A stretch of 26,884 nt of DNA from a virus, in the IMG/VR virus record IMGVR_UViG_3300007734_000530, positions 1-26,884 of that record; one strand, 5' to 3'. The position numbers and the translations under genes were made by a program. Within the stretch, counting starts at the first letter, position 1. Each line of letters begins with the position of its first letter. The notes beneath the pieces were generated by a model. It saw only the letters and a program-made list of their open reading frames with translations, searched no databases and was not told where the DNA came from. Of this stretch, positions 10,747 to 14,376 are shown in pieces.

Positions 10747-10886
10747 ACTGCTAGACCTCCAGCGATAATCAAAAGAACTCCAGCAACAATAACAGAAACA
10801 GGAACACTAAACTCAGCGACACCTAACACGATGAGAACACCGCCAACAACTTCCATCAAAGTTGTAATCATTTCTTTTTTAATCAT
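10743..10886 (-). CDS. 47-aa two-helix membrane protein between TerL and portal
   Basis: This short frame fills the space between TerL and the portal gene exactly. Its ATG overlaps the TerL stop (ATGA), and its own TGA overlaps the portal ATG in the same way. After MIKKEMITTLMEVVGG come two hydrophobic segments, VLIVLGVAEF and VSVIVAGVLLIIAGGLAV, joined by a short turn with a proline. The product is thus probably an integral membrane hairpin. Double coupling strongly suggests real translation. Function unknown: it might be a lysis or superinfection protein placed in the packaging operon, but nothing in the sequence proves that. Confidence 0.75.
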   Translation of the reverse strand: MIKKEMITTLMEVVGGVLIVLGVAEFSVPVSVIVAGVLLIIAGGLAV

Positions 10887-12403
10887 TTCCAAATATCCAA
10901 TACAGAAGGTTCAACTGTTGCGGTTGCTCTAGTTGTCGCACGATCTAACGCCATAACCATAGCAATACAAGCATCAATTTTTCTCTTGCTCTTACCTTTC
11001 GATAGTCGCCAGCCTGTGTCGGTCATTCGTTGTGCTGCCGATAAGACTTGATCGGTGAAAGTTGGTGAACCATCGTGAGCAACTTTGCCGTTCACTATCA
11101 TCTCGTAGGCGTTACCGCACGCAGGAATCATTCGTGCTGCTGACTGCCCGAACTCAACCATAGGCAAACCGTCATCACTTAACGCTTCAGCACTTCGTTG
11201 AAAGTAGGCAGGGTCAAACGCAAACTCTTGAACCTGATATGTGCGGTGCAGTTCCCTCAGGTGTGCTTCAACATCGGCGACATCAACACCCTCTAGAGAT
11301 GGCTGCCAAATCTTTGAACGCACAACAGTTTGATCTTGTTGAGGTTGAGCAATTACTACACCGATTGAGTCGTGCTTCAACGCCATATCAATTCCAACCC
11401 AAACAGGCAGATCAGAAACAAGTTGTGTATCAGATACACATTGTTCCCAAGCCCCAACAGGTAGCCAAGACTCTTGAGAGCGCACCCATTGGTTCAAACG
11501 CCACCTTCTCATACCCATTTCGCTCGTCTGTTTGACGGCTACAGCAAGATCATCGGGGTCTAATAAGCCTTCAGCGAGGTTCGGATTCGCTGTGCGCCAC
11601 GCTTTACGGTCATCAATTTTACAATCTTCAGGTGCTTCCCACCACCAAAACCCAAACGAATCGTCATCAATCTCGCCCGAACTGACCTGCTTTCCATACT
11701 GGTAGAGCCTGCCTGCGAGCGAATCTAGATCAAATCCTGCCGTAGTGATGCTGATTGTTAGCGGTTCTATTCGTGCGCCTGAACCTAAAGTCATCTGATC
11801 GTAAAGATCGTGGCTTGCTTGTCCCCACAATTCATCGAACAGCACCAATGACGGATTCAGTCCAGCCTGACCTTTAAAATCTGATGAGAGAACACGAAAC
11901 ACCGAACCAAAGCGTGGCATTTCAATAGCGTCACGATAAATCTTTGACTCAGCGTTCAACATCGGACTATTCACAATCTGTTGTTTCGCTTCATTAAAAA
12001 TTATCCGTGCTTGTTGTCTGTCGTTCGCTACCGCATAAACTTCTGAACCTGCTTCGCCTGCGATCATCCCGTAAACACCAACAGCCGACAACATTAAAGA
12101 CTTGCCCTGCTTGCGAGGTAAACCGATAAGCGCACGGCGATAACGCAACCTGCCTGAAACATCGTCACGCTCATACAAAGAACGCAACAACCATTTCTGC
12201 CAACCAGTGAACCGCAAAGGTTCGCCTGCTCGAAACCCTTTAAGAACATTGAAATAAGTTTCAGCGAAATCAATTATCTCATCACCATCGGTTGCCCGAT
12301 TTTTTCGTTGCGTATAAAACGCAGGCTTCCACTTATCTGCTGGCTGAACGCTTTTCGGCAATACGCTTGCTGAGTTCCGTAAAATCGTGCTTTGTTGTTT
12401 CAC
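10883..12403 (-). CDS. terL: Terminase large subunit
   Basis: The 506-residue product has the two terminase domains. In the ATPase part, the Walker A variant GLPRKQGKS is at residues 94-102, Walker B LVLFDE at 186-191, and ITTAG, a coupling-motif candidate, near 219-223. In the nuclease part, the acidic residues are D339 (VGIDMA), D398 (FDPAYF) and D477 (KIDACIAMVMALD). It packages DNA into the prohead through the portal. The start is GTG at 12403, with AGGA four bases upstream; this makes a 71-base overlap with TerS, longer than usual. It belongs to the terminase_1/HK97-like group by motif style. Confidence 0.95.
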   Translation of the reverse strand: MKQQSTILRNSASVLPKSVQPADKWKPAFYTQRKNRATDGDEIIDFAETYFNVLKGFRAGEPLRFTGWQKWLLRSLYERDDVSGRLRYRRALIGLPRKQGKSLMLSAVGVYGMIAGEAGSEVYAVANDRQQARIIFNEAKQQIVNSPMLNAESKIYRDAIEMPRFGSVFRVLSSDFKGQAGLNPSLVLFDELWGQASHDLYDQMTLGSGARIEPLTISITTAGFDLDSLAGRLYQYGKQVSSGEIDDDSFGFWWWEAPEDCKIDDRKAWRTANPNLAEGLLDPDDLAVAVKQTSEMGMRRWRLNQWVRSQESWLPVGAWEQCVSDTQLVSDLPVWVGIDMALKHDSIGVVIAQPQQDQTVVRSKIWQPSLEGVDVADVEAHLRELHRTYQVQEFAFDPAYFQRSAEALSDDGLPMVEFGQSAARMIPACGNAYEMIVNGKVAHDGSPTFTDQVLSAAQRMTDTGWRLSKGKSKRKIDACIAMVMALDRATTRATATVEPSVLDIWK

Positions 12404-12812
12404 CTGTTCCTAACAATCCTCGCTCTGATGGGCTGAAGCCTACCTGACCTAGCAGGGTAATGATTTGGCGATCAACTTCACGAAGCGCACGCCGTTCACG
12501 CCATAGGCTTTGATCTTTCTGCAACATCACACGCAACCTAGTTCGTTCCTCAGTTGCCTCACACAACATCAACACCAGTTCGGTATCCATATTCTGTTTC
12601 AACCAGCCTGCACCTGATGACCACACCTGATTCCACAAGTTCATTCCCTGATTACCTAACGGGCGTGACGGCTCAGGAATATGATTTGAAACCAATGTGG
12701 TGATCTCAGCCATCGGAACTATCGCAGGCAGTTTGCGCCCTGACGGATTCCCGATACGCATTTTTCGTTCAACAGGTTTACGGTTCGAACCGCCTGAACC
12801 TTTGCCACCCAT
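12333..12812 (-). CDS. terS: Terminase small subunit (P27 family)
   Basis: This 159-residue protein begins MGGKGSGGSNRKPVERKMRI, a basic Gly-rich start typical of P27-type small terminases, and continues with IPEPSRPLGNQGMNLWNQVW and LKQNMDTELVLMLCEATEER. The helical core is the expected oligomerisation region. Its role is to recognise phage DNA for packaging and stimulate TerL, whose gene overlaps its 3' end. The C-terminal helix (DFTELSKRIAEKRSASR) may contact TerL. The gene starts 20 bases after the end of the disrupted polymerase-like gene, and no clear promoter is visible in that gap. Confidence 0.9.
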   Translation of the reverse strand: MGGKGSGGSNRKPVERKMRIGNPSGRKLPAIVPMAEITTLVSNHIPEPSRPLGNQGMNLWNQVWSSGAGWLKQNMDTELVLMLCEATEERTRLRVMLQKDQSLWRERRALREVDRQIITLLGQVGFSPSERGLLGTGETTKHDFTELSKRIAEKRSASR

Positions 12813-12832: not shown

Positions 12833-13481
12833 TCACGCTGCAAGAGAACTTGAACATCGAATCTGTTTGATGTGCTTGCACTCAACTTTGCGAAACTGGT
12901 TGTGTGGACAAGAACAAGACCAATGCGAACCCGACAACGAAACAGAATAGAAACCCTCACCCGAACTAGAAGCAACCTCAAACACATGATCAGGTTGAGC
13001 CTTAACAAACTTCTGTCTATCCGTTGGCGCAATCCAATCAAAACCCAAAGCGTCAGCAACGCCTCGCTCAGTCCCATCATCAATCTGAACCTGACCATCA
13101 AACAAACCGAACTGCGACAACTTCAAACCCTGCGCCTTCGCCTTCTGACGCATCAACACATTCAACTCTTTCGAACCCGTGATATACCAAAGGAACGCAC
13201 CCCACTGGCGAGGCGTAGCACACCAAATGTCCACACCAAAAGCATCACCATCTAAACCGATAATGCCGTGCGAAGCCTGCTCACCTAAACGCTCAAAGAA
13301 AATTGTTCAGGCAACAAAACATCTCAAAGAATCTGCCTGAACAACAATGTCAAGATCGCCAACATCTGCGCTCGCCTTCGAAACGAACCACCAACCTCAA
13401 CAGTAAACCCTGCGCCTCAAAATGTGCGACAAGATCAGAAGCGACAGGCGCAACCTCGCCCCAAGCCTTACGAAGTTTCAT
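12833..13481 (-). pseudogene. Family X DNA polymerase-like nucleotidyltransferase fused to a SWIM zinc finger, frame-disrupted
   Basis: From an ATG at 13481 the reading starts MKLRKAWGEVAPVASDLVAH, then loses frame. In the next frame VEVGGSFRR appears, and in a third ADVGDLDIVV. Together these form the PolX motif GGSFRR...GDLDIVV, with its first two catalytic aspartates. The third frame has a TGA at 13307..13309, then runs open to 12833. It encodes FGVDIWCATP (third Asp), FLWYITGSKELNVLMRQKAK, GLKLSQFGLFD and TERGVADALGFDWI, all matching the palm and thumb of bacterial PolX. At the end HWSCSCPHNQFRKVECKHI is a CxC...CxH SWIM finger. The breaks map near 13405..13410, 13375..13378, 13323..13327 and 13299..13302. 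It may be a pseudogene, an assembly error, or recoded. Confidence 0.8.
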
Positions 13482-13491
13482 TCTGCAACCT
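13458..13491 (-). repeat. Direct repeat, copy 2 (start of the PolX-like gene)
   Basis: This copy contains AGGTTGC, the ATG of the PolX-like gene, and the next 13 bases AAACTTCGTAAGG followed by TGGG. The same pattern occurs 232 bases upstream at 13690..13721, with a few mismatches and a two-base gap before the ATG. The two copies bracket the 67-codon gene at 13478..13681. Confidence 0.8.
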
Positions 13492-13681
13492 GCAATTCTT
13501 TCGCATATTGAATCGCCTCATTTCGTGAACCCTGCACAAAATATCTGTGATCATTTTCAAGACTTATCAACCCATCAACGATTTTCGCAACCCACCATTG
13601 TTTGTGAGAATCATTCATCACTGCATAATCAGTGCCAACAACTTGAAAGACACCTGCGGTAAGTTTTCTTGTTGTGCTCAT
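13478..13681 (-). CDS. Unknown small protein, 67 aa, between direct repeats
   Basis: The start is taken as the ATG at 13681, because it overlaps (ATGA) the stop of the tiny frame before it. Another start five codons upstream is possible. The product, beginning MSTTRKLTAGVFQVVGTDYA, has WWVAKIVDGLISLENDH and ends EAIQYAKELQVAE. It has no cysteines or membrane segments and looks like a small alpha/beta domain; I do not recognise it. Its own stop overlaps the ATG of the PolX-like gene. Because 30-base repeats flank it, the gene may have entered by insertion or tandem duplication at the 5' end of that gene. Confidence 0.7.
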   Translation of the reverse strand: MSTTRKLTAGVFQVVGTDYAVMNDSHKQWWVAKIVDGLISLENDHRYFVQGSRNEAIQYAKELQVAE

Positions 13682-13713
13682 AAGCAAGAGTCCCATTCCT
13701 TACGAAGTTTCAT
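13678..13713 (-). CDS. Tiny 11-codon frame, likely remnant of a duplicated PolX start
   Basis: This frame encodes MKLRKEWDSCL. Its first five residues are the same as those of the PolX-like protein (MKLRKAWGEV). Its ATG overlaps the TGA of the zinc-ribbon gene upstream, after GGGAGG, and its TGA overlaps the next gene's ATG. It may be translated only to carry ribosomes forward, or simply be a leftover of the duplication. Confidence 0.45.
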   Translation of the reverse strand: MKLRKEWDSCL

Positions 13714-13721
13714 CGCAACCT
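13690..13721 (-). repeat. Direct repeat, copy 1
   Basis: This copy contains AGGTTGCG, then ATGAAACTTCGTAAGG and TGGG, nearly identical to the block at 13458..13491 that starts the PolX-like gene. It includes a ribosome-site-like GGGAGG just upstream, so the duplication covers a working translation start. Confidence 0.8.
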
Positions 13722-13877
13722 CCCGAACCCTTTAACGATATCTGCCATCAACTGCTCAGGCGAATCGTTGGAGTGTTTGCGCTCGTGACAAGCCAAACAG
13801 ATATCATTCGGGAACACTTCTAGCCAGTGAATCTCTGCCGCACAACTTGTGCAAATAATATTCGGGCGATCACTCAT
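13710..13877 (-). CDS. Zinc-ribbon miniprotein, 55 aa
   Basis: A 55-codon frame starts at ATG 13877, three bases after the shared leader GAGGAGGACTT. It encodes MSDRPNIICTSCAAEIHWLE and then NDICLACHERKH. The two CxxC pairs (C9, C12; C27/C30) with nearby His make a compact zinc ribbon. The rest is helical (EQLMADIVKGFGRL). The gene is the first after a promoter candidate at 13918..13923 and begins the run of small genes that ends at the terminase. It may bind nucleic acid or protein; its exact partner cannot be seen. It overlaps the next frame by ATGA. Confidence 0.78.
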   Translation of the reverse strand: MSDRPNIICTSCAAEIHWLEVFPNDICLACHERKHSNDSPEQLMADIVKGFGRLR

Positions 13878-13923: not shown

Positions 13924-14003
13924 GCCCACCAAGCAGGCTAGAATCGAACCTATGCGACAAATAAAAACTGGTTTTGCTGACAGTTTGCGAGCGAAGGGGG
14001 CAC

Positions 14004-14051
14004 AGGGGTAGCACTAAGCCCCTTGTAGAAAAAATCGCATTTGTTTTTGCG
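14004..14051 (-). terminator. Weak terminator/hairpin region after the HNH gene
   Basis: After the HNH stop the minus strand has CGCA-N8-TGCG followed by ATTTTTT (14029..14051), a short-stem terminator candidate. Next comes AGGGG...CCCCT (14004..14023). The space from 13924 to 14003 holds a TTCGATT stretch resembling a tRNA T-loop but no convincing gene. Confidence 0.35.
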
Positions 14052-14064
14052 TGTGTTTTAATTT

Positions 14065-14376
14065 TTAGTTTGAGATGATTGGTTTGTTCTGTCGGCGTGA
14101 ATTGCACGAGCGATGCGCTGCTGCGAGAGGCGAGTTGACATCGGCAGGTATTAAGTGATCGGCTGTGAATGGGTCATTAGGTTTCTTGCCTTCGCCACAT
14201 ATCCAGCAGGCTATGGCGTTGTCTCTGATCTGTTTGGCTCGTCTCTTGTAGTCGCCTTTGTAGTGCAGGCGTTCAGGTTTCGGGTGTTGTCTGTTCCATA
14301 AAGTTTGGCAGTTTGTGCAGCGTGTGGCGTTGCTCGTAAGGGTGCGACAGTTAAGGCAGGGTCTAGTGATCGGCAT
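14065..14376 (-). CDS. HNH endonuclease
   Basis: This 103-residue protein has an N-terminal zinc knuckle (C7/C10, C20/C23) and a C-terminal HNH domain with CWICGEGKKPNDPF, ADHLIPADV (D73-H74), H88 and SCNSRR. HNH enzymes cut DNA with one metal ion. Encoded a short way upstream of the terminase genes, as in many HK97-like phages, it may assist packaging by nicking at the maturation end; that role is inferred. It overlaps the methyltransferase gene by 14 bases, so the two are co-expressed and might also act as a modification and cleavage pair. Confidence 0.9.
   Translation of the reverse strand: MPITRPCLNCRTLTSNATRCTNCQTLWNRQHPKPERLHYKGDYKRRAKQIRDNAIACWICGEGKKPNDPFTADHLIPADVNSPLAAAHRSCNSRRQNKPIISN

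Follow-up and report, generated by a model that had tools for sequence, protein, structure and literature searches.

The 26,884-nt viral contig analysed here (the window; IMG/VR record IMGVR_UViG_3300007734_000530, positions 1 to 26,884) carries on its minus strand, directly beside the terminase genes, a gene that combines the motifs of a family X DNA polymerase (PolX) with a SWIM zinc finger. The features of this locus, from the genome end inwards, are as follows.

14065–14376, minus strand: HNH endonuclease, the last gene at the right genome end, on the far side of cos (phrog_338, 3.1e-4); it ends the ~32-kb relatives.
13998–14007: predicted cos core, minus strand CCCTGTGCCC; the window reads through it, and it is missing from both kinds of contig end in relatives.
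13710–13877, minus strand: 55-aa slot ORF with a CxxC...CxxC pattern, the first gene past cos, with no Pfam match.
13478–13681, minus strand: 67-aa slot ORF whose stop overlaps the PolX-SWIM start, present in relatives with and without PolX-SWIM.
13481 (ATG) to 12833 (TGA), minus strand: PolX-SWIM gene, delimited from the frames read and from the one-frame homologues L002–L027; the frame is disrupted several times at ~13300–13410.
13340–13392, minus strand: PolX palm motif GGSFRR (~13392–13375) and GDLDIVV (~13360–13340, the first two catalytic Asp), in different frames here; Pfam DNA_pol_B_palm is found in 22/22 relatives.
13205–13240, minus strand: third catalytic Asp segment FGVDIWCATP, from translation and alignment of intact relatives.
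13013–13192, minus strand: PolX thumb, WYITGSKELN..MRQKAKAQGLKLSQFGLF.. (PF14791, 4.2e-15, residues 15–74 of the 133-aa open part).
12872–12916, minus strand: SWIM zinc finger CxC-x9-CxH, CSCPHNQFRKVECKH, invariant in 22 intact homologues.
12333–12812, minus strand: terminase small subunit (terS), directly downstream of PolX-SWIM (phrog_83, 7.5e-8).
10883–12403, minus strand: terminase large subunit (TerL), with Pfam TerL ATPase and nuclease.

When the minus strand is translated in its three frames, the PolX core and then the SWIM finger are spread over all of them. The start, MKLRKAWGEVAPVA at 13481, stands in a third frame apart from both motif-bearing frames, GGSFRR lies in another, and a single frame holds GDLDIVV, FGVDIWCATP, TGSKELN, GLKLSQFGLFD and CSCPHNQFRKVECKH. 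The longest open part of the gene, of 133 aa, gives a Pfam match to DNA_pol_B_thumb at 4.2e-15 and one to SWIM at 6.9e-4, the latter scoring 19.5 bits and so falling marginally below the Pfam cut-off of 19.6, and in tblastn searches the proteins of intact relatives match the window in successive frames over the entire gene; the PolX-SWIM signal is therefore not a chance one. The original prediction, which had assembled PolX motifs and a SWIM finger from several frames, was correct in substance on all three analyses, and its gene end and start agree with the translation.

A scan of IMG/VR recovered 26 viral contigs (L002–L027) that carry the same fusion, each in one frame and at an intact length of ~215–220 aa, with two of the contigs beginning inside or at the PolX-SWIM start at a contig edge; a profile scan added a full-length copy (L044) and a C-terminal fragment (L055). 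Across the 22 relatives taken into the alignment of intact proteins, the invariant elements are GGS-RR, VGD-D, the third Asp, TG-K, N, R and the finger pattern CxC-x9-CxH. Median dN/dS is ~0.21 in the core, ~0.13 in the SWIM finger and ~0.50 in the linker, and this purifying selection in core and finger indicates that the two halves are kept together as a single protein. Open frames in 26 contigs together with selection on both parts establish that the fusion is real, and the arrangement proposed from the broken gene, a PolX core lacking the 8-kDa and PHP domains and joined to a SWIM finger in a phage, is borne out by these intact copies. Outside the viruses, a scan of bacterial genomes for a source gave a single hit, a partial one, in an Amphibacillus ORF of ~579 aa that we take to be an ordinary PolX, and the plasmid matches were likewise ordinary PolX.

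Profile searches with the 22 intact homologues assign the core to DNA polymerase family X, with the Pfam palm found in 22/22 (up to 1.3e-5), the thumb PF14791 in 22/22 (up to 7.7e-16) and the NCBIfam PolX model in 22/22 (up to 1.6e-15). A profile search of the PDB returned Thermus thermophilus PolX as the best match (6e-22), followed by pol lambda and African swine fever virus (ASFV) PolX. The match to Thermus PolX begins at its residue 157 and ends at the thumb end; because the core starts where the palm starts, the 8-kDa and fingers helix-hairpin-helix (HhH) region, which is common in family X without being universal or defining, is absent from the phage protein. The PHP domain is absent as well, only a linker and the SWIM finger following the thumb, and we therefore do not class the protein as a canonical bacterial PolX of the PolX-PHP exonuclease type. 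The active site is conserved throughout: the GS motif, D-x-D and third Asp of the nucleotidyltransferase palm are invariant in the 22 homologues, as are the thumb contacts G105, N110 and R114, with S106 present in all but one. On the profile alignment, from which positions were counted, GDLD aligns with Thermus PolX D198/D200, and the invariant K of TGSK aligns with K263. An AlphaFold model of the protein (pLDDT 88.6) has as its top Foldseek match among solved structures Thermus PolX (8e-13), then pol lambda/beta. Among viral predictions it matches giant-virus and ASFV PolX, with phage SWIM proteins matching the finger only, and neither set of structures contained a fold match covering the whole architecture. 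At ~215 aa the protein leaves no room for the BRCT domain of a TdT; it may nonetheless add nucleotides without a template, as the original prediction had also suggested. These features predict a DNA polymerase. Most PolX enzymes grip gaps through the HhH domains, and with these lost the activity could be weak or altered.

The SWIM finger is defined by its ligand pattern CxC-x9-CxH, which is invariant in 22/22 intact homologues, and the Pfam SWIM model (PF04434) matches 13/22, with E-values down to 3e-4 and several near the curated cut-off. The finger probably binds DNA, though it may instead bind protein. The same type of finger was seen by eye at the C-terminus of an ERF-type single-strand annealing protein-like product on another contig (L028, 2–1402).

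The frame changes in the window copy are all confined to ~13300–13410. A tblastn search with relatives' ORFs found no comparable break elsewhere in the parts of the window that they cover, in keeping with the strictly local disruption first described. Poor sequence quality throughout the window was considered and rejected, as seeming breaks at 16.1 and 17.2 kb proved to be overlapping-frame matches in poorly coding stretches. An exact 26-mer scan found no near-identical second copy of the window, and the breakage occurs in 0/22 aligned relatives; with the fusion open and conserved there, the breakage is specific to the window contig. Decay, recoding and assembly error had each been raised as its cause. 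Programmed recoding, by frameshifts or stop readthrough, would account for conserved motifs spread over several frames, yet under the standard code the gene is a single open frame in all 22 aligned relatives, which makes recoding unnecessary and highly improbable. Genuine decay of an accessory gene on its way to being lost deserves more weight, albeit as a tentative alternative: the gene has been gained or lost repeatedly in this lineage, and one relative (L137) retains a genuine remnant, the first 32 PolX-SWIM residues fused to another slot ORF. Against it, several small indels fall within ~110 bases while the residues are otherwise conserved as elsewhere, with no excess of substitutions (compared with L012, 16/105 or 15% in the broken stretch and 38/294 or 13% in the rest of the gene), and neither the relatives nor the other relative-covered parts of the contig show such breaks. 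The even substitution level and the intactness of every other relative-covered gene favour an artefact, and we read the breakage as most plausibly a local sequence or assembly error or a very recent decay.

Comparison of contig ends places the gene close to a physical end of the phage genome. In three relatives (31.65, 32.00 and 31.83 kb) the contig opens ~0.55 kb ahead of PolX-SWIM and closes at the HNH gene or just past it, giving the order cos, small slot ORFs, PolX-SWIM, terS, terL, ... MTase, HNH, cos. Among 28 contig starts that carry the conserved CAGCAAAAC motif, 24 fall on the identical base 16 nt ahead of it (L002, L009, L011, L013–L015, L019–L021, L086, L087 and L096–L098 included). 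Contigs that read through this junction (16 loci, the window included) keep a constant CCCTGTGCC just before the shared start base. One right contig end breaks off directly before this element, and another terminates in a similar TAC. End repair removes 3' overhangs. Since the same ~10 nt are gone from both types of end, we infer that cos is a 10-nt 3' single-stranded overhang at window positions 13998–14007. Metagenomic contig ends alone can thus reveal a physical genome end and its likely overhang type.

Carriage of the gene in this slot, which runs from the left cohesive end to terS, is optional. Among TerL relatives with a readable slot, 26 carry PolX-SWIM and 36 do without it, in a set biased towards carriers, since the PolX-SWIM gene itself served to find part of it. 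Parsimony on the TerL tree requires 16 presence/absence changes, at least 10 of them forced by well-supported branches. The clearest pair, L123 and L124, differs by 0.003 changes per site in TerL branches and has flanks that are 97–98% identical, and L124 has the PolX-SWIM ORF, and nothing more, in place of 17 nt in L123. Other phages fill the slot with small CxxC proteins or leave it almost empty. Two scars were also seen in the slot. In the window (13681–13712) an 11-aa sequence, MKLRK|EWDSCL, links the PolX-SWIM start with the tail of a different slot gene (compare ...TQKEWDSCL in L091), and in L137 (800–974) 32 PolX-SWIM residues are joined to another slot ORF. Such scars suggest frequent illegitimate recombination.

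The virus group probably infects Actinobacteria, as judged from WhiB. The window encodes it, as do five other contigs that extend far enough, and actinobacteriophages have WhiB as their most common class of regulator (PMC8612146). PolX is encoded in only 6% of sequenced actinobacterial genomes (PMC9226535). The window also encodes a single-strand annealing protein and a YqaJ-type exonuclease, and neither a family-A polymerase nor Ku (PF02735) was found in 16 related contigs, many of them partial. In a recombination-type phage that relies on host enzymes for the rest, a polymerase able to fill gaps would make sense.

We favour, with reasonable though far from full confidence, a reading in which PolX-SWIM is an accessory gap-filling or end-processing polymerase cassette whose window copy was broken by error or recent inactivation. 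The cassette would consist of a single gene encoding a minimal family X polymerase of palm and thumb, without 8-kDa lyase, fingers or PHP, in which the C-terminal SWIM finger would assume part of the DNA (or partner) binding, replacing the grip of the lost domains. It would fill short gaps or process ends when phage DNA is replicated, recombined or repaired, in hosts most of which have no PolX themselves, and it is gained and lost repeatedly in a variable slot bounded by the left cohesive end and terS. The pattern of presence and absence argues for an accessory function and makes a core role in packaging or circularisation unlikely. An association with DNA ends or packaging had been predicted from the outset. 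Its positional part holds, the gene lying ~0.5 kb from the predicted cos and adjoining terS, whereas a core packaging role is rejected by close relatives in which cos and terminase are unchanged and the gene is missing, with a clean empty site.

Proximity to a predicted 3'-overhang cos could point to a narrower task, the repair of damaged or resected 3' overhangs at the cohesive ends before ligation as an NHEJ-like aid to circularisation. The mycobacteriophages Omega and Corndog offer a precedent in their Ku (PMC3706429), and for Cluster J phages such as Omega, which have 4-nt 3' overhangs, NHEJ is predicted to aid circularisation (PMC3706429). We consider this role unlikely, given that the gene is absent from 36 phages with the same slot, near-identical ones included, that Ku was found in 0/16 contigs searched, many of them partial, and that annealing and ligation of 10-nt cohesive ends need no polymerase. 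Nucleotidyltransferase folds see wide reuse, and optional cargo in a variable slot at a genome end would also suit a counter-defence or host-takeover enzyme in which the PolX fold is redirected to modify host nucleic acid or protein; the invariant DNA-polymerase-type thumb and equivalents of template and minor-groove contacts speak against such a redirection, as does the fact that the nearest sequences are bacterial PolX, and we regard it as decidedly unlikely. More improbable again is a dedicated genome-end polymerase that acts at cos, rebuilding or extending 3' cohesive ends or joining non-matching ends; on that reading alone, its action at cos would itself drive the gene turnover recorded in the slot by scars joining slot-gene fragments.

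A literature search for SWIM together with PolX found no paper, and with no full-length fold match the arrangement appears to be a previously undescribed one among DNA polymerases; the position of the gene between cos and terS and its optional carriage are further findings of the present analysis. PolX-SWIM illustrates how far family X can be reduced when a zinc finger is added, and it equips ordinary small phages of probable Actinobacteria with a polymerase of the repair type, absent from most such hosts. With phages that have and lack the gene occurring as natural pairs, its benefit is directly testable, and PolX cores of palm and thumb only are of practical interest for DNA synthesis (compare PMC13252658).

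Among known systems, phage SWIM proteins that are stand-alone or otherwise fused (for example L029–L034) share the finger type, WSCxCP..ECKHIKQI, but have no PolX core, and in L028 the finger is attached to an apparent single-strand annealing protein. ASFV PolX, a minimal viral PolX of 174 aa, is also reduced, being described as lacking the 8-kDa domain (PMC5330486), and matches by profile at 9e-8 to 2.5e-7; it differs in having no SWIM finger, in its distant sequence similarity and in belonging to a eukaryotic virus. The PolX proteins of large phages (Yersinia GN1/YerA41, Cobetia Carin-5, Escherichia IME392 and Vibrio 2.275.O) have a homologous palm and thumb and likewise lack PHP, whereas they carry an N-terminal extension of ~100 aa or more, 8-kDa/fingers-like by eye from length and sequence, have no SWIM finger and come from genomes of 110–350 kb. 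In Escherichia phage IME392 (L060, 1144–3399) the PolX gene has a putative DNA ligase gene directly after it, a pairing of gap filling with sealing, and in a 462-kb uncultured phage (L059, LR756500.1, 1393–2355) the domain order appears by eye to be permuted, with the PolX palm and thumb first and an HhH/8-kDa-like region C-terminal. The closest comparison is with Thermus thermophilus PolX (3AU2/3AUO), which shares GS..RR, GDLD, the third Asp, TGSK with its K263 equivalent and the thumb end TEE..ALGxxWIxP; unlike it, the phage protein dispenses with residues 1–156 (the 8-kDa domain and fingers HhH) and with PHP, and adds a SWIM finger.
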